Below are positions 3,764 through 12,518 of a stretch of 64,000 nucleotides of DNA, piece by piece. The notes beneath the pieces were generated by a model. The model was not told the origin of the DNA. It saw nothing but the letters and a program-made list of their open reading frames with translations, and did not search any database. The stretch's first letter is position 1; every line of letters starts with the position of its first letter. This DNA is from Thiorhodospira sibirica ATCC 700588 (GTDB taxonomy: Bacteria; Pseudomonadota; Gammaproteobacteria; Ectothiorhodospirales; Ectothiorhodospiraceae). The DNA lies in NCBI RefSeq assembly GCF_000227725.2, contig NZ_MU255056.1, positions 2,158,511 to 2,222,510 of the forward strand, in the 5' to 3' direction. The position numbers were made by a program, and so were the translations under genes.

Positions 3764-5587
3764 ATGAAAAACAAACAATTACGCAATATCGCCATCATCG
3801 CCCACGTCGATCATGGTAAAACTACGCTGGTGGATCGTCTGCTCCAGCAGTCCGGCACTTTTTCCGAGCGTGCGACCTTAAGTGAGCGCATGATGGATAG
3901 CAATGATCTGGAAAAGGAACGCGGGATCACCATTCTGGCCAAAAATACCGCGATTGAGTGGCGCGATTACCGTATCAATATTGTGGATACGCCGGGACAT
4001 GCGGATTTTGGCGGCGAAGTCGAGCGCGTGTTGTCGATGGTGGATTCGGTGCTGTTGCTGGTGGATGCGGTCGATGGGCCGATGCCACAGACCCGTTTTG
4101 TTACCTCCAAGGCTTTTGCGATGGGATTCAAGCCCATTGTGGTGGTGAATAAAATCGACCGCCCCGGCGCCCGGCCTGAATGGGTGGTCGATCAAGTGTT
4201 TGATCTGTTTGATCGTTTGGGCGCGAGCGAAGAACAACTGGATTTCCCGGTGGTGTACTGCTCGGCGCTGAAAGGTTTTGCCGGACTAAGCCCAGACATC
4301 GAGGACGGCGACATGACGCCGCTGTTTGAGACCATCCTTGAAAAGGTGAGTCCGCCGGACGTGGATTTTGATGGCCCCTTCCAGATGCAGATCTCTTCGC
4401 TGGATTACAACAGTTTTCAGGGCTTGATCGGTATCGGGCGGATTACCCGTGGCCAGATCAAGAGTAATTCCCCGGTGAAGGCGATTGATCGGGAGGGCAA
4501 TGTGCGTTCCGGGCGTATTTTGCAGATTCTGGGCTTTAAAGGGCTGGAGCGGGTGGAAGTGCCACAGGCCAATGCCGGTGACATCATTGCCTTTTCCGGC
4601 ATGGATGAGTTGTATATCTCCGATACGCTGTGCGCCCCGGCGGCGGTTGAGGCGCTCAGAGCGCTGACGGTCGATGAACCCACCATGAGCATGACCTTTC
4701 AGGTGAATACCTCGCCGTTTGCCGGACGCGAGGGCAAGTATATTACCTCGCGCAATCTGCGTGAGCGCCTGTTTGAAGAGGTCAAGCATAACGTTGCCCT
4801 GCGGGTGGAGGAAACCGCTGATCCAGACAAGTTCAAGGTCTCCGGGCGTGGCGAGCTGCATCTGTCCATCCTGATTGAGAACATGCGCCGCGAAGGCTAT
4901 GAACTGGGCGTCTCGCGTCCTGAAGTGATCGTGCGTACCCTGGAAGACGGCAACAAGGAAGAACCCTATGAAATGGTCACGGTGGATGTCGAGGAGGCCC
5001 ATCAAGGCGCGATCATGGAAAAACTCGGCAGTCGGCGGGCGGAATTGCTCGACATGATACCCGACGGCAAAGGGCGGGTGCGGCTGGATTACAAGATCCC
5101 TTCACGCGGCCTGATCGGCTTTCAAACCGAGTTTTTAACCACCACCTCGGGCACCGGCATTCTCCACCATGTCTTTGACAGCTATGGCGAATATCGCCCC
5201 GGTCGGGTCGCCAAGCGCAATAATGGCGTGCTCATTGCTAACGGCGTGGGGAAATCGCTGGGCTATGCACTGTTTAATCTGCAAGAGCGCGGGCGCTTGT
5301 TCATCGGCCCCGGTGAAGAGGTGTATGAGGGCATGATCATCGGTATCCATTCGCGTGATAACGATCTGGTGGTTAATCCGCTCAAGGCCAAGCAGCTCAC
5401 CAATATTCGCGCCGCCGGTTCGGATGAAAATATTCTGCTGACCCCACCCATTCGCTTATCGTTGGAGCAGGCTCTGGAATTTATTGAGGAAGACGAGCTG
5501 GTTGAGGTGACGCCTAAGTCCATTCGCCTGCGCAAGAAATTGTTGTTGGAGCATGAGCGCAAGAAGGCCTCGCGCACGGCGGCCTGA
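3764..5587 (+). CDS. typA: ribosome-binding GTPase TypA/BipA
   Basis: A 607-residue translation-factor GTPase of full length. The G motifs are in order near the N-terminus: [10 protein letters not shown] (G1), RGITI (G2), DTPGHADFG (G3), NKID (G4) and SALKG (G5). After these come the EF-G-like domains, the DRLxGR-type [13 protein letters not shown] segment, and a BipA-specific C-terminal domain ending in a lysine/arginine-rich tail. It binds ribosomes and helps 50S assembly and growth under cold or stress. It stands alone between nikR and the protease trio. Confidence 0.96.
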
Positions 5588-5644: not shown

Positions 5645-6487
5645 ATGATGACGCACGCGCTGCACACCTTCCTTAAGCCATCGGCATGGTCGCTGTCCGC
5701 TGTGACGGGGATTTTTGGGGGAATGGCTTTATTTTTGCTGACCGGCTGTGCTCCCGGCCATCTGCTGGTTGAGCAAGGTGATCTCAACCAGCTGGATGCG
5801 CGCCTGAGTGTGGTTGATGAGGGTCTGCTTACGCTGTCGCAGGCACAGCAGCAGGCTGTGGAGGCATTGAATGCCCAGTGTCTGCAGGCGCAACAGGAAC
5901 TGCAACACGCCTTTGCGCAGAATCTTGATGAGGTGCTGGCGAAAATTCCGGTGTGCCCGCCGCCGCCGGTTTGTCCACAACCGCTGCCGCCACCGCAAGC
6001 ACAGAGTACCGCCCCGCCGCCCGCTCCAACCAGTCTGGGTGACAAGCAGATCATCGGCGCGATTGAGCAGGTCAGTATCTCGCCGCCCGGCATTGTTTTT
6101 ACCGCCCGCATTGATACCGGTGCCGAATCGGCCTCGCTGGATGCCCGCGATATTCAGCCCTTTGAACGCGACGGACAGCGCTGGGTGCGCTTTGTGGTGG
6201 TTGATCGGGAGAGCCAAAAGCGCATTGAGCTGGAGCGGCGGGTATTGCGCTATGTGCGCGTGGTGCAGGCGGTGACTGACGAGGCAGAGCGCCGTCCGGT
6301 GGTGGAATTTCATCTGCAGCTGGGCACACTGTCGCAAACTGCCGAGTTTACCTTGTCTGATCGCAGCCATTTGCAGTTTCCGGTGTTGATTGGCCGCAAT
6401 GTCTTGCAAGATATGATGTTGGTGGATGTGGCGCTGGAATACATCGCCCCCCTGCCTTCGCCCACGGATAACCCGACGCAGCCTTAA
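5645..6487 (+). CDS. retropepsin-like lipoprotein, RimB / 'ATP-dependent zinc protease' family
   Basis: 280 residues. An N-terminal hydrophobic segment ends in a lipobox LTG-C35, so it is predicted to be a lipoprotein. Next come a coiled-coil part (about 40-100), a proline-rich linker (CPPPPVCPQPLPPP) and the family domain (about 135-270). That domain has an aspartyl-protease-like RIDTGA (D157) and FPVLIGRNVLQD. The family was named a zinc protease, but the DTGA motif and fold point to a retropepsin-like enzyme. It is immediately followed (0-bp gap) by a 7TM protein and an ATP-grasp ligase, a combination also seen in other proteobacteria. It may process a peptide made by the ligase. The substrate is unknown. 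Confidence 0.82.
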   Translation: MMTHALHTFLKPSAWSLSAVTGIFGGMALFLLTGCAPGHLLVEQGDLNQLDARLSVVDEGLLTLSQAQQQAVEALNAQCLQAQQELQHAFAQNLDEVLAKIPVCPPPPVCPQPLPPPQAQSTAPPPAPTSLGDKQIIGAIEQVSISPPGIVFTARIDTGAESASLDARDIQPFERDGQRWVRFVVVDRESQKRIELERRVLRYVRVVQAVTDEAERRPVVEFHLQLGTLSQTAEFTLSDRSHLQFPVLIGRNVLQDMMLVDVALEYIAPLPSPTDNPTQP

Positions 6488-8008
6488 ATGTCCCGGCCCC
6501 TGTTTTATTCCCTGATCGCCTTTCTTATCGTCACCGCCATCGGTACCGCCTGGCTGCGTCATATTTATACGCAGATTCCCTTCCTGCCCGGCGAACAAAC
6601 CACGGCCTGGATTGTGGAGGCGCGCATTGATTTCAGCGCCCAGGGCGAGCCGGTGTTGCTGAGTCTGAATATTCCCGAAGATCCGCCGGGTTTTCAGATT
6701 GTCAGCGAGCAGACCGCCTCACCGGGTTATGGTTTCTCCATTGTTGAATATGACGGCGATCGGCGCGGCGAGTGGTCGATCCGCACGGCCTCCGGGCGCC
6801 AGACGCTGTATTACAAGATCAAGATTATCCCGGAACGCAGCGGCTTGAGCGGACCGCATGAACCACAAGCCAAACCGCGCATTGAACCGGTGTTTTGGGA
6901 AGAGTCCGCCGTTGTTGCCGCCGAACAGCTTCTGGGGCGGGCGCGTGCCCTTTCCAGTACACCACAAAGCATGACCCGCGAGCTGATCAAGCTGCTTAGC
7001 CAGCCTGAACCGGGACAAAATGCGGCCTTATTATTGACGCATCACCCGCGTGAGGTATTGCTGGAAAAATTACTCAATCAGGCGGGGGTTCCCACCCGCC
7101 TGGCGATGGGCTTGTGGCTTGAGGATGCACGACGCAATCAAACACTCACGCCGATGCTGGAGATTTATGTGGAGGGTCGCTGGATCATGTTTGATCCGCG
7201 CACCGGGCGTCAGGGTGTGCCGGAAAATCTGCTGCTGTGGCAGCGTGGCGGTCCCTCGCTGATTGATCTGATGGGCGGTGCGCGTTCGCAGGTCAGCTTT
7301 TCGATGATTCGCCAGACCATCCCCACGCTGGAACTGGCACATACCCAGTATCGCGAAAGTGGCTTTGACATTCTGGGGATTCACCGCCTGCCCATTGAAG
7401 AGCAGGGGGTGTTCAAATTGCTGCTGTTGTTGCCGATGGGGGCGCTGGTCACGGTATTTATGCGCATCATTATCGGCCTGCGCACCTCCGGCACCTTCAT
7501 GCCGGTGCTCATCGCCCTGGCGTTTTTACAGACCTCCCTGCTGCAGGGGCTGATCAATTTTGTCGTCATTGTCGCCATTGGGCTGCTATTGCGCAGTTAT
7601 CTTTCACATCTGAACCTGTTGCTGGTGGCGCGCATTGCCACAATTATTGTCATCGTCATCTTTATCGTCGCCCTGATCAGCCTGCTGGGCTATCAGTTGG
7701 GATTAAATACCGGCATGACGGTCGCCTTCTTCCCGATCATTATCATCGCCTGGACCATTGAGCGCATGAGTATCCTATGGGAGGAGGAAGGCCCGTGGGA
7801 GGTTCTGGTGCAAGGTGGCGGCAGCCTGCTGGTCGCTGTCGCCGCGTATCTTTCCATGACTCACCCTTTGGTCGGACATCTAAGCTTTAATTTCCCGGAG
7901 CTGAATCTGGTGCTGGTGGCGCTGATCATGCTCATGGGTCAATACACCGGCTATCGCCTCTCGGAGCTGTATCGTTTTCGTGATATTGAGCAGCATGTGC
8001 GTCGATGA
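6488..8008 (+). CDS. inactive transglutaminase-like domain fused to a 7-helix membrane domain
   Basis: 506 residues. An N-terminal anchor (about 5-23) leads to a large extracytoplasmic part with a transglutaminase-like region (about 150-260: LLEKLLNQAGVPTRLAMGLW, FDPRTGRQG). No clear Cys-His-Asp triad is seen. A C-terminal domain of about seven helices follows (about 308-495) with conserved RTSGTFMPVLIALAF and PIIIIAWTIERMSI. It matches the 'UUP1 family / inactive transglutaminase fused to 7 TM helices' proteins. It sits between the lipoprotein protease and the ligase and overlaps the latter by 4 bases, so the three are likely translated together. It may act as a membrane scaffold or peptide-binding partner. 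Confidence 0.85.
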   Translation: MSRPLFYSLIAFLIVTAIGTAWLRHIYTQIPFLPGEQTTAWIVEARIDFSAQGEPVLLSLNIPEDPPGFQIVSEQTASPGYGFSIVEYDGDRRGEWSIRTASGRQTLYYKIKIIPERSGLSGPHEPQAKPRIEPVFWEESAVVAAEQLLGRARALSSTPQSMTRELIKLLSQPEPGQNAALLLTHHPREVLLEKLLNQAGVPTRLAMGLWLEDARRNQTLTPMLEIYVEGRWIMFDPRTGRQGVPENLLLWQRGGPSLIDLMGGARSQVSFSMIRQTIPTLELAHTQYRESGFDILGIHRLPIEEQGVFKLLLLLPMGALVTVFMRIIIGLRTSGTFMPVLIALAFLQTSLLQGLINFVVIVAIGLLLRSYLSHLNLLLVARIATIIVIVIFIVALISLLGYQLGLNTGMTVAFFPIIIIAWTIERMSILWEEEGPWEVLVQGGGSLLVAVAAYLSMTHPLVGHLSFNFPELNLVLVALIMLMGQYTGYRLSELYRFRDIEQHVRR

Positions 8009-8979
8009 ACTGGCTCAGACATCTGCGCTGGCCGCTGATCAGCCCAAAGCGCCTCGCAGAGATCGGGATTTTGGGCATGAACGGGCGCAATATCGACTTC
8101 ATCAGTCGCTACAATCCGCGCCACTGTTATCCGCTGGTCGATGACAAGCTCAAGACCAAACTGCTGGCGCAACAACATGGCCTGTCCACGCCCCAGCTGC
8201 GCCTGATCATCCAAAGCCAGCACCAGGTCAACCACCTTGCCCAGGCGCTGGCTGATTTGAGCGCCTTTGTGATCAAGCCGGCGCGTGGCTCCGGGGGCAA
8301 AGGCATCACCGTGATCACCCAGCGTGACGGCGAACAGTTCCTCAAAGCCTCCGGTCAGGCGCTGAGTCTTGGCGATCTGCAACGCCACCTGTCCAATATT
8401 CTTGCGGGCATTTACTCACTGGCTGGCGCCCCGGATATCGCCATCATTGAAGACCTGATCCAGCCTGACCCTTATTTTCGTGATTATTCCTATGAAGGCG
8501 TGCCGGATATCCGCGTGATTGTCTTTAAAGGCTATCCGGTGATGAGCATGTTGCGCCTGTCTACCCACGCCTCCGATGGCAAAGCCAACCTGCATCAAGG
8601 CGCCGTCGGCGTGGGTCTGGACATTGCCAGCGGGCGCGCCATCTATGCCGTACAGTTTGGGCGGCGCGTAGAACAACACCCCGACACCCAGCGCCCCTTG
8701 GTCGAAATCTGCCCGCCGCACTGGTCTACCATTCTCACCCTGGCCGTGCGCTGCCAGCAAATGACCGGCCTTGGCTATCTAGGCGCTGATATTGTGCTGG
8801 ATGCCCAACATGGCCCCACCATGCTCGAACTCAATGCCCGCCCCGGACTGGCCATACAAGTCGCCAATGGCTGCGGCCTGCTGCCCCGCCTGCGCCACAT
8901 CGAAGGCCTCAGCCAAGCGCACAACACCCCGCACGACTGCGTAAATTACGCCATGCAGCAATTTGCTACCTTCAAATAA
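8005..8979 (+). CDS. ATP-grasp ligase, RimK-like 'alpha-L-glutamate ligase-like' protein
   Basis: 324 residues with an ATP-grasp fold: the nucleotide-binding FVIKPARGSGGKGI, IIEDLI, and the Mg-binding carboxylates near the C-terminus (LGADIVLD, then ELNARPGLAIQ). The N-terminal GMNGRNIDFISRYNPR is typical of this branch. RimK relatives add glutamate or other amino acids to a carboxyl end. This branch always sits with a transglutaminase/7TM protein and a RimB-like protease, as here. The likely job is making an isopeptide or amino-acid tag that the partners bind or remove, which is inferred from context. Confidence 0.85.
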   Translation: MNWLRHLRWPLISPKRLAEIGILGMNGRNIDFISRYNPRHCYPLVDDKLKTKLLAQQHGLSTPQLRLIIQSQHQVNHLAQALADLSAFVIKPARGSGGKGITVITQRDGEQFLKASGQALSLGDLQRHLSNILAGIYSLAGAPDIAIIEDLIQPDPYFRDYSYEGVPDIRVIVFKGYPVMSMLRLSTHASDGKANLHQGAVGVGLDIASGRAIYAVQFGRRVEQHPDTQRPLVEICPPHWSTILTLAVRCQQMTGLGYLGADIVLDAQHGPTMLELNARPGLAIQVANGCGLLPRLRHIEGLSQAHNTPHDCVNYAMQQFATFK

Positions 8980-9020: not shown

Positions 9021-9503
9021 TTAATCTTTACCCGCCAGCAGGCGATCCAGGCGCTGTTGTTCCTCGGGGGTTAAGGTTGCTGCGTTGTGCGTCTGTGCGG
9101 TTTTATCACGGCTGCGGCTGCGCAGTACCCAGAATAAGGCGCCCAGGGCGATGATGAGCAGGATGATGGGGCCAAACCACAGGGCATAGGTCAGCGGACT
9201 CATGCGCGGACGATACAGGACAAATTCGCCGTAGCGGCTGACCATGTAGTCCACCACCTGTTCGCGTTCGGCGCCTTCCTTGACCATGCCGTAGATCTGG
9301 TTGCGCAGGTCGATGGCCAGCGGCGCGTTGGAATCAAACAGGCTTTCATTCTGGCAGACGGTGCAGCGCAGCTCACGCACCAGTGACTGATAACGCATTT
9401 CCTGTTCCGGATTCTCAAAGATCAGGATTTCGCGTGCGCCCAGCGGCTGCATCAGTACACCGATGACCAGCAGCAGAGCGCTTAACAGCAGGAGGGATTT
9501 CAC
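9021..9503 (-). CDS. ccmH: cytochrome c maturation protein CcmH
   Basis: 160 residues: a signal peptide/anchor, then the redox motif LRC47-TV-C50QNES, then a C-terminal membrane helix (about 105-128) and a short charged tail. It reduces or holds apocytochrome c cysteines in the periplasm so heme can be attached. This is the single-domain form. No ccmI or TPR part follows, because the next gene is convergent. The gene overlaps ccmG by 4 bases and ends the ccm run. Confidence 0.95.
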   Translation of the reverse strand: MKSLLLLSALLLVIGVLMQPLGAREILIFENPEQEMRYQSLVRELRCTVCQNESLFDSNAPLAIDLRNQIYGMVKEGAEREQVVDYMVSRYGEFVLYRPRMSPLTYALWFGPIILLIIALGALFWVLRSRSRDKTAQTHNAATLTPEEQQRLDRLLAGKD

Positions 9504-10045
9504 GAGGAGGGCACCTCTTCGGCCAGTAGCTGGTGATACAGAGGGATGATGGTGTCACGGGCAATCTGTGGACTGATCGGGCCGATGTGTTTGTAGCGGA
9601 TGATGCCCTGGCTATCCAGCAGGAAGGTTTCCGGGGTAGCGTAGACCCCCCAGTCAATCCCCACCAGGCCGCGCTCATCAAAGGCAATCGCGGTATAAGG
9701 GTCTTCACCGGCAGCGCGCAGATAGCGCAGGGCGTCATCGCGGGTATCGCGATAATTCAGGCCGTAAATGGGGATGCCGTATTTATCCAGCTCAACCAGT
9801 ACGCCATGCTCATGGCGGCAGGATACGCACCACGAGGCAAAGACATTAAGCAGCACCGGCTCGCCGAGTAAATCGGTATGACTGACCTGTTTTTCCGGGT
9901 CATGCAGCTCGGGCAGGCTAAACGCCGGCGCTGGTTGGCCGATCAAGGGCGAGGGAATCTCGCGGGGATTGAGGCTTAAGCCCACCCACAACAGGGCTAC
10001 GAGTACCACAAAGGCCAGCAGCGGCCACACAAAACGTAAACGCAT
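9500..10045 (-). CDS. ccmG: thiol:disulfide interchange protein CcmG/DsbE
   Basis: About 181 residues from the ATG that begins MRLRFVWPLL. An upstream in-frame start would run deep into ccmF and is unlikely. One N-terminal helix anchors a thioredoxin domain with the active site W-C73-VS-C76. It keeps the CcmH and apocytochrome thiols reduced in the periplasm. It starts 4 bases after the ccmF stop and overlaps ccmH, so it is part of the same transcript. Confidence 0.94.
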   Translation of the reverse strand: MRLRFVWPLLAFVVLVALLWVGLSLNPREIPSPLIGQPAPAFSLPELHDPEKQVSHTDLLGEPVLLNVFASWCVSCRHEHGVLVELDKYGIPIYGLNYRDTRDDALRYLRAAGEDPYTAIAFDERGLVGIDWGVYATPETFLLDSQGIIRYKHIGPISPQIARDTIIPLYHQLLAEEVPSS

Positions 10046-10049
10046 GGGA

Positions 10050-12065
10050 TTATCCTGTGCCTGAGGGCTTGGCGTTCGCCAAAACAGCGGGATCGGGGTG
10101 AGCAACGCTGGCCTGTGCGGTCTTGAGGCGATAGCGTCGATCTGCCGCCGCAATCAGTCCACCGAAGGTCATCAACAGACAGCCCAGCCACACCCAGTTC
10201 ATGTAGGGCTTGTAGTAGACCCGCGCAATCCATGAACCATCCGGCAAGGGTTCGCCCAGTGAGACATACAGATCACGAAAGATGCCGCGATTGAGCGAGG
10301 CCTGGGTCATGGGCATTTCCTGGCTCGGATAGTAGCGTTTTTCCGGGTACAGGGTAGGGAGCTGGCGTTCGCCATCAAAGACCGTGACCTCGCCCCGGTC
10401 GGCGACATAATTCGGCCCCTGCACACGGCTGATGCCTTCCAGACGGAAATCATAGCCCGCCACGGTGATGGTTTCGCCGATGCGCAGATGCACATCACGT
10501 TCCTGATCATAGCCGATGACGAAGGTGATTCCGACTACCATCAGCGCCATACCAAAATGCGCCAACTGCATGCCGACATAGCCAAGCCCAAGACGGCGCA
10601 CGCGCGGACTCTTAGCCTCATCATGCTCAGGCACAGGCGGTGTCTGACGCAGGCGCACAAAGACATCATGCACAATGGTGGCCATGATCCACAGGCCCAG
10701 GAAGGTGCCCATCGCCGCCAGCAAAGACCAGCTTCCCACCGCCAGCGGCCACAGCATCCCGACGACCAGACTGAAGGCCAGAATCAGGCGCAAACGCCGC
10801 AATACCTGTAGCGGATCGTCTTGTTTCCAGCGCACCGTGGGGCCAAAGCCCAACAGCAGCATCAGCGGCAGCATCAATGGCAAAAAGACACTTTCAAAGT
10901 ACGGCGGGCCGACCGAAATCTTGCCCAGCCCCAGGGCATCCAGTACCAGCGGGTAAATGGTCCCCAGCAAGACCGCCGCACAGGCAACCACCAAGATGAC
11001 ATTATTGAGCAACAGCCCGGTTTCGCGTGAAAACATCCCAAAGGAGCCGCCCAGGCCGACTTTGGGGCCGCGCCAGGCAAACAGGCTTAAAGAGATACCG
11101 ACCACCACCGCCATATAGCCCAGCAGATAGCTGCCGCGACTGGGGTCTACCGCAAAGGCATGTACTGAGGTGAGCACGCCGGAGCGCACCAGAAAGGCCC
11201 CGAGCAGGGTTAGCGAAAAGGTCAGAATGGCCAGCATCACCGTCCAGTTTTTGAAGGTGCCGCGTTTTTCGGTCACGGCCAGCGAATGCAGCAGGGCCGT
11301 GCCGGTCAGCCAGGGCATCAGGGAGGCATTTTCAACCGGGTCCCAAAACCACCAGCCGCCCCAGCCGAGTTCATAATAGGCCCACCAGCTCCCCAGCCCA
11401 ATGCCCAAGGTGAGAAAGGCCCAGGCCACCGCCGTCCAGGGTCGCGACCAGCGCGCCCACGCCGCATCCAGGCGACCACCCAGCAGGGCCGCAATGGCAA
11501 AGGCAAAGGGCACCACAAAGCCCACATAGCCCATGTATAGGGTCGGGGGATGGAAAATCAAACCAGGGTCTTGCAGCATCGGGTTGAGATCGCGGCCATC
11601 CAGCGGCGCGGGGATTAAACGCTCAAAGGGGCTGGAGGTGAATACCATAAAGCCGATAAAACCCACGGCAACCAGACCCATCACCCCCAGCACCCGTGCC
11701 AGCACATCGGCGGGCAGGCTGCGGCTGAATATCGAAACCATGACGCTCCAAAAGCCCAGCATCAAGGCCCACAGCAGCAAGGATCCCTCATGACCACCCC
11801 ACACCGCGGACAGCTGGTACTTCAAGGGCAAGGCCAGATTGGAGTGCGAGGCCACATAGGCCACGGAAAAATCATGGGTCAGGAAGGCGTGGGTGAGAAT
11901 CAGGTAGGCGATGAACAAAAAGACAAACTGCCCCCAGGCTGCACTGCGCCCCACCGCCATCAAGGCCTGATCGCCACGCGCTGCACCCAGCAAGGGCAAG
12001 ACGCCTTGTAACAGTGCTAAAATCAGCGCCAGAATCAGCGCCAGTAAACCAATCTCTGGCAACAT
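10050..12065 (-). CDS. ccmF: heme lyase subunit CcmF
   Basis: 671 residues, full length, with many membrane helices. The heme-handling tryptophan-rich motif is GGWWFWDPVENASLMPWL, flanked by conserved histidines, and a periplasmic domain lies near the C-terminus. With CcmH it moves heme from holo-CcmE onto the CXXCH motif of apocytochrome c. The ATG directly follows the ccmE stop and ccmG follows by 4 bases, giving a tightly packed operon. Confidence 0.97.
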   Translation of the reverse strand: MLPEIGLLALILALILALLQGVLPLLGAARGDQALMAVGRSAAWGQFVFLFIAYLILTHAFLTHDFSVAYVASHSNLALPLKYQLSAVWGGHEGSLLLWALMLGFWSVMVSIFSRSLPADVLARVLGVMGLVAVGFIGFMVFTSSPFERLIPAPLDGRDLNPMLQDPGLIFHPPTLYMGYVGFVVPFAFAIAALLGGRLDAAWARWSRPWTAVAWAFLTLGIGLGSWWAYYELGWGGWWFWDPVENASLMPWLTGTALLHSLAVTEKRGTFKNWTVMLAILTFSLTLLGAFLVRSGVLTSVHAFAVDPSRGSYLLGYMAVVVGISLSLFAWRGPKVGLGGSFGMFSRETGLLLNNVILVVACAAVLLGTIYPLVLDALGLGKISVGPPYFESVFLPLMLPLMLLLGFGPTVRWKQDDPLQVLRRLRLILAFSLVVGMLWPLAVGSWSLLAAMGTFLGLWIMATIVHDVFVRLRQTPPVPEHDEAKSPRVRRLGLGYVGMQLAHFGMALMVVGITFVIGYDQERDVHLRIGETITVAGYDFRLEGISRVQGPNYVADRGEVTVFDGERQLPTLYPEKRYYPSQEMPMTQASLNRGIFRDLYVSLGEPLPDGSWIARVYYKPYMNWVWLGCLLMTFGGLIAAADRRYRLKTAQASVAHPDPAVLANAKPSGTG

Positions 12066-12518
12066 TTACAGTTCCTCAGGCGGCATCACGCGGGCCTGCT
12101 CACGCTGCGCCTGCTTGATGGCCTCAGCCGCTTCAGGCGGCATATAGGTTTCATCGTGTTTGGCCAGTACCTGATTGGCGTGGAAGACGCCTCCTTCCAG
12201 CAAACGCCCCACGGCAACCACCCCTTGTCCCTCACGAAACAGGTCCGGGAGAATGCCGTCAAATACTACTGGCACCACCGCCGCTGTATCGGTGACATTG
12301 AAGCTGACACGGATACCCTCGCGCTGCACACTGCCATCCTCGACCAGACCGCCGATGCGAAAGGCCCGATCCAGCGGAGCTTCTTGCGCCAGCACCTGTG
12401 AGGGGCTAAAGAAAAATACCAGATTATCGCGAAAGGCATTGAGGGTTAATGCCACAGCCAGCGACACCCCACCAAGCCCGACCAGTACCGCGACCAGGCG
12501 TTTAGTACGTTGTTTCAT
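12066..12518 (-). CDS. ccmE: heme chaperone CcmE
   Basis: 150 residues: an N-terminal anchor helix, an OB-fold body, and the heme-linking motif LAKHDETY with the covalent His at H121 and Tyr at Y125. It receives heme from the CcmABCD complex and hands it to CcmF. Its start overlaps the end of ccmD by 17 bases. Confidence 0.96.

Follow-up and report, generated by a model that had tools for sequence, protein, structure and literature searches.

The window, a 64,000-nucleotide stretch of the Thiorhodospira sibirica ATCC 700588 genome, contains a three-gene locus on the forward strand with the following features.

5645-6487, + strand: rloA-like gene, 280 aa lipoprotein retropepsin (PF05618 Zn_protease, E 8.3e-38; the AlphaFold2 model matches RloA2, Lpg0085 and RloA structures)
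5738-5749, + strand: lipobox Leu-Thr-Gly-Cys35 (LTGC) of the RloA-like protein (read from the sequence, by pattern comparison)
5774-5941, + strand: stalk of the RloA-like protein, one predicted helix, residues 44-99 (AlphaFold2 model)
6113-6124, + strand: catalytic motif D157-T-G-A of the RloA-like protein (alignment to 9g58)
6488-8008, + strand: rloB-like gene, 506 aa (PF14400, PF14402)
7256-7987, + strand: 7TM part of the RloB-like protein, which holds R326, R369 and R426
8005-8979, + strand: rloC-like gene, 324 aa RimK-like ATP-grasp amide ligase (TIGR02291, PF14397)

The stop codon of rloA ends at 6487 and the ATG of rloB lies at 6488, a gap of 0 bp, while rloB and rloC overlap by 4 bp (ATGA at 8005-8008). 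These ORF coordinates bear out the coupling claimed in a preliminary description of this DNA, and the Pfam and NCBIfam matches agree with the families it had named. The gene order, A-B-C, is that of RloABC, and we assign the locus to a lipid-anchored sub-type of rloABC, an envelope-stress operon already known from Pseudomonas aeruginosa. From ORF reading, we take the gene that ends 57 bp upstream of rloA (3764-5587) to encode a TypA/BipA-like GTPase, and the genes downstream of rloC on the opposite strand (9021-12518) are presumably for cytochrome c maturation.

The rloABC operon was named by Lormand et al. (2025) in P. aeruginosa, where it comprises PA14_41690, 41710 and 41730 (PA1768-1767-1766; PMC12239564). 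RloA is reported there to cleave poly-Glu in runs of 8 or more Glu, including internal or terminal runs within proteins. Loss of all three P. aeruginosa RloA proteins reportedly stops growth and is lethal in low salt, alters cell shape and increases beta-lactam sensitivity; when rloB or rloC is deleted as well, growth in low salt is restored completely and the other phenotypes in part. The RloA residues required for poly-Glu cleavage are also required in vivo (PMC12239564). No substrate candidate was found for P. aeruginosa RloA, and the sections of the paper on which we draw assign neither a product to RloC nor a transport role to RloB (PMC12239564). The preliminary description was correct on the families, but since this 2025 report its statement that their role is not settled no longer holds in that form.

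The secretion signal of the RloA-like protein, judged by pattern, is the lipobox at Cys35, which the preliminary description had already reported on the protease; the residues after it are A-P-G-H, with no Asp at the +2 position. Lipoproteins are sorted to the outer membrane by the +2 rule, and the lipid anchor is probably in the outer membrane. In the AlphaFold2 model (mean pLDDT 68.3, and about 58-87 in the helix blocks), the stalk helix is followed by a Pro-rich linker that reaches about residue 137 and then by the retropepsin domain, whose fold resembles RloA2 9g59 (E 4e-10), Lpg0085 2pma and RloA 9g58. Lipid anchor and stalk together would set RloA at a fixed distance from the membrane. 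When D48 of P. aeruginosa RloA is placed at D157 in the 9g58 alignment, R155, R202, R217 and R240 correspond to the poly-Glu contact positions K46, R92, R114 and R137; these positions were counted by hand, and the offsets for R92, R114 and R137 land on Arg in 9g58. All four Arg are invariant in the nine aligned RloA proteins of clade I-B, the clade of the window copy. The disulphide Cys pair, termed conserved in periplasmic RloA orthologs rather than defining for them (PMC12239564), is absent, and residues 133-280 contain no Cys at all. Both Rlo models of NCBIfam, for RloA and for RloB, are narrow equivalog/exception models; each is the best match of its window protein, but at 107 bits against a cut-off of 210 for RloA and at 320 bits against 900 for RloB. 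The RloA-like gene is the single PF05618 gene of the window genome. This genome (98% complete) encodes no run of eight Glu codons, so a substrate like that of P. aeruginosa RloA would have to arise without the ribosome.

The RloB-like protein comprises an N-terminal TM helix, a transglutaminase-like domain (Transglut_i_TM PF14400, residues 24-185, E 4e-52) and a 7TM domain (7TM_transglut PF14402, residues 257-500, E 1e-103). From this layout we infer a periplasmic transglutaminase-like domain and seven TM helices. The transglutaminase Cys and His are missing in all 47 type I RloB proteins, the window copy included, in line with the preliminary call of a dead domain. Among charged residues, only R326, R369 and R426 are invariant across 55/55 RloB proteins of three types, and all three lie in the 7TM part, which suits, rather than proves, an anionic partner. 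In a structure model built from a nine-sequence alignment the 7TM part was poor (pLDDT about 43-64), and a Foldseek search with this model returned the transglutaminase-like entry 3isr as its sole significant match and no transporter fold for the 7TM part.

A by-eye motif likeness (G..P.LIA) had prompted the idea that the RloB 7TM part is a CapC/PgsC homologue, which we found unsupported. The hhalign probability of RloB against CapC was about 1% (0.6% with a broader profile), hmmscan of 38 RloB proteins gave zero CapC (PF14102) matches, and in hmmsearch the CapC proteins were outranked by numerous decoy membrane proteins and reversed ones. The profiles compared were shallow (Neff 1.8 to 3.2), and these scores mean that homology failed to show, yet they are no disproof. 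The 'CapC' match in the lipocone paper (PMC12419801), in the part of it that we draw on, refers to CapCone only. One Pseudomonadota family (L032-L036, L051) carries CapC PF14102 twice in a single protein of about 1080 aa.

The RloC-like ligase scores 411 bits with TIGR02291, over the cut-off of 314, and matches ATPgrasp_ST PF14397 at E 4e-91. RimK is a relative of RloC and RimB a relative of RloA, but the lipobox and a score of 17.6 bits with the RimK model NF007764 (cut-off 331) set the locus apart from RimB-RimK itself. No canonical RimK or RimB was found in the window genome; of the two PF08443 matches listed for it, one is a RimK-like protein of 490 aa that falls short of the TIGR00768 cut-off and the other is glutathione synthase.

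We surveyed 239 class-level genomes, with a ligase threshold of E up to 1e-40 for TIGR02291. PF14402 occurs in 49 of them, TIGR02291 in 44 and PF05618 in 108. RloC was never found without RloB, all 44 ligase genomes falling within the 49 RloB genomes (hypergeometric chance 8e-43, ignoring kinship of genomes), and the gene linkage is not chance. It bears out the claim that the three genes form one functional unit. Scattering and independent loss are not the pattern seen: RloB and RloC stay together, and RloA-type genes also occur alone. Hand-sorting placed 40 of the 49 RloB genomes under type I (one of which, G033, has type II too), 4 under type II alone and 3 under type III; the other two were unusable, G196 being a fragment and G077 scoring under the family cut-off. 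By coordinates, the retropepsin is directly upstream in 38/40 type I genomes (exceptions G167 and G120), and the ligase is adjacent in 39/40, the remaining one (G114) being cut by a contig end. Most intergenic gaps at the examined loci fall between -4 and +16 bp, although a few are as long as 248. Three RloB copies, those of type III, are entirely without RloC. At one type II locus (L059, genome G181) RloB and RloC are fused in one 838-aa ORF (Transglut_core; 7TM_transglut, 338-528; ATPgrasp_ST, 556-823). The fusion places the RloB C-terminus beside the ligase, and since the ligase needs ATP, this C-terminus would face the cytosol. The related operons suggest that RloB and RloC function as a single unit, which may carry an acidic peptide through the cell envelope.

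We rejected the idea that Rlo is a stand-in for osmoregulated periplasmic glucans. Although MdoG is missing from the window genome, the two are not mutually exclusive: across the 239 genomes, MdoG occurs in 11/44 genomes with RloB and RloC against 24/195 others (p 0.056, positive direction).

In a tree of 55 RloB proteins, the window copy falls in clade I-B (15 rows, support 100/100). Type II, with 5 rows (100/99), and type III, with 3 rows (100/100), form their own groups, and the remaining type I proteins, I-A (32 rows), are grouped weakly (60/71). All 15 clade I-B RloA proteins have a lipobox by pattern, in the relaxed form AGGC in L044 and L045, against 0/30 of the I-A rows with a visible RloA gene. 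L018 and L067 (I-A) have no adjacent RloA, and L007 (I-A) was flagged as a lipobox by script, but its signal ends SYA-ET. The spacing from lipid Cys to catalytic Asp is 105-148 residues in the 14 I-B RloA proteins with a D[TS]GA motif, and the RloB motif reads [TS]SGTFMP in I-B versus mostly TFGTFMP in I-A. The stalked lipoprotein RloA is the mark of a well-supported clade, I-B, which we add here to the known rloABC; the lipobox that the preliminary description placed 'in this copy' is present there but not peculiar to it. The window genome (I-B) and G223 (I-A) belong to one family, another member of which (G106) has neither, and this points to patchy inheritance.

In the I-B locus L081 (genome G179) the catalytic motif of RloA is degenerate (DPGV), RloB and RloC look intact and the genome holds no further PF05618 gene; this locus is a counter-example to an always-active RloA. 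L044 and L045 are MAG contigs labelled Desulfuromonadales/Desulfuromonadaceae with I-B rloABC and an RloB 62% identical to that of the window, which reflects either gene transfer or wrong labelling of the bin.

A profile of four type II RloB proteins, run against a draw of 369 genomes, found eight type II genomes, five previously known here and three new (G683, G686, G700; operon loci L056-L060 and L121-L123). Type II is set apart by E values below 1e-200 with this profile, against 1e-77 or weaker for type I. Its transglutaminase triad of Cys, His and Asp is intact in 8/8, so the role of this sister looks catalytic, and none of the eight operons has a retropepsin beside it. Three of these genomes, G071, G197 and G686, have no PF05618 retropepsin anywhere. 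The type II ligase (or fusion) is followed by a TPR protein in 8/8 and the TPR protein by a beta-barrel-like protein in 7/8 (not L077); a TPR lipoprotein precedes the operon in 4/8. Because the downstream profiles came from the first five loci, only L121-L123 test them independently (3/3 TPR, 3/3 beta-barrel), and the beta-barrel call consists of weak Pfam matches in 3/4 proteins tested (best MtrB_PioB, 3.7e-9; none in L073). The type II RloB of L123 is divided between two frames and gives two matches. We found no description of the type II operon in open-licence PMC papers. GGDEF proteins, one with protoglobin and one with a sensor propeller, lie near type II operons in two of the eight loci (L075 and L077), these two being the neighbours that the search covered.

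An adjacent retropepsin is thus found in 38/40 type I against 0/5 type II genomes of the first draw (Fisher p 2e-5, ignoring kinship). A live site without retropepsin and a dead site nearly always with one suggest that the two domains are alternative processors of one product. Type III (L053, L054, L055) misfits this rule: the transglutaminase Cys is missing in 3/3, and there is no adjacent co-directed retropepsin. Type III might use another ligase, but ORF reading of L088-L090, with family searches for a minority of the ORFs, gave no adjacent one, save a RimK-like gene about 4 kb off in L089. Ion or osmotic channels are found near type III RloB: ZntB and a P-type ATPase in L054/L089 and an MscS-type channel in L055 (L054 and L055 belonging to genomes G132 and G214).

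The published epistasis, the pattern of live and dead sites and the three invariant Arg point to RloC as the maker, RloB as the passage and RloA as the trimmer of an acidic periplasmic peptide. In this proposal, cytosolic RloC would use ATP-dependent amide ligation to build a chain of glutamate or a comparable acidic residue. RloB, its C-terminus facing RloC, would carry this chain, growing or finished, across by way of its 7TM part, and in the periplasm the dead transglutaminase domain of RloB would hold or guide it. A presumably dimeric RloA retropepsin on its lipid-anchored helical stalk would then cut the chain down, and the operon would set the amount and length of the acidic peptide. We put the probability of this whole scheme at roughly one half. 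The preliminary description had instead envisaged a cycle in which the ligase makes a peptide tag, the TG-7TM protein binds it and the protease cuts it, a model that reportedly originates with Iyer et al. (2009). Its own prediction that protease and ligase lie on opposite sides of the membrane held up, and with RloB between the two, outward transfer fits better than the tag cycle, which is unsupported as worded. The evidence favours an acidic polymer that would cross the envelope over a cytoplasmic tag cycle. By extension, RloB-RloC could be the core of unrecognised trans-envelope machines, in which rloABC trims an acidic peptide in the periplasm and type II processes it at the transglutaminase site and releases it through a TPR/beta-barrel exit; we regard this wider idea as possible but doubtful.

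The regulated object could also be a protein, with RloC adding Glu tails to one or a few envelope-bound proteins, RloB acting as a scaffold that recognises the tail and RloA removing it, as RimK and RimB are reported to do on RpsF (PMC12239564, PMC11957791). The reported cutting of poly-Glu inside and at the ends of proteins by RloA would agree with this (PMC12239564), but with ligase and protease on opposite membrane sides the modified proteins would need later export, and the P. aeruginosa work yielded no substrate candidate (PMC12239564), so we consider it unlikely. Less likely still is that RloB is a receptor whose dead domain binds a periplasmic acidic peptide or cell-wall fragment, the 7TM part signalling to RloC and RloA destroying the ligand. 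Dead transglutaminase domains have been proposed as peptide-binding, for toxins (PMC3482391), and the phenotypes reported are envelope-wide (PMC12239564); the apparently catalytic role of the type II sister speaks against a receptor, however, and RloB and RloC are paired as strictly as one would expect of a synthase and its channel. The Pfam name of PF14397, Sugar-transfer associated ATP-grasp, and transposon insertions in PA1766, PA1767 and PA1768 reported from an exopolysaccharide-related suppressor screen (PMC7314104) raise a further alternative, in which a sugar or lipid-linked precursor is the acceptor for an amino acid ligated by RloC, RloB passes the product and the poly-Glu activity of RloA is incidental. 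Given the reported in vivo need for the poly-Glu cleavage residues of RloA (PMC12239564), together with the TIGR02291 match and RimK similarity of RloC, we think this very improbable.

P. aeruginosa requires its Rlo proteases for cell shape and biofilm, for survival in low salt and for tolerance of beta-lactams, and the window genome, with its single retropepsin, lacks the redundancy that hid the phenotype there. If type II does secrete a ribosome-free acidic peptide, it would represent a new kind of polymer export.

Among known systems, the poly-gamma-glutamate synthase PgsBCA/CapBCA likewise makes an anionic peptide with a ligase and a membrane protein, but its ligase family differs from that of RloC, and RloB is not supported as a CapC/PgsC homologue. 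Type II RloB-RloC operons share with the window locus a 7TM protein and an RloC-type ligase, adjacent or fused, and differ from it in their intact triad, the lack of an adjacent retropepsin and the presence of TPR (all) and beta-barrel (most) proteins. RimB-RimK, which acts in ribosomal protein S6 glutamylation, also pairs a retropepsin with a RimK-like ATP-grasp ligase, and RimK with RimB present is reported to make poly-alpha-L-glutamate of up to 28-mers (PMC11957791); RimB, however, is cytoplasmic and without a 7TM partner, whereas the window protease has a lipobox. P. aeruginosa RloABC is alike in its three families, gene order, secreted retropepsin and poly-Glu contact residues. The window RloA differs from it as a lipoprotein with a helical stalk and without the disulphide Cys of the catalytic domain, the window RloA and RloB both fall under the NCBIfam Rlo cut-offs, and the window genome has one PF05618 gene only, where P. 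aeruginosa has three RloA proteins and RimB.
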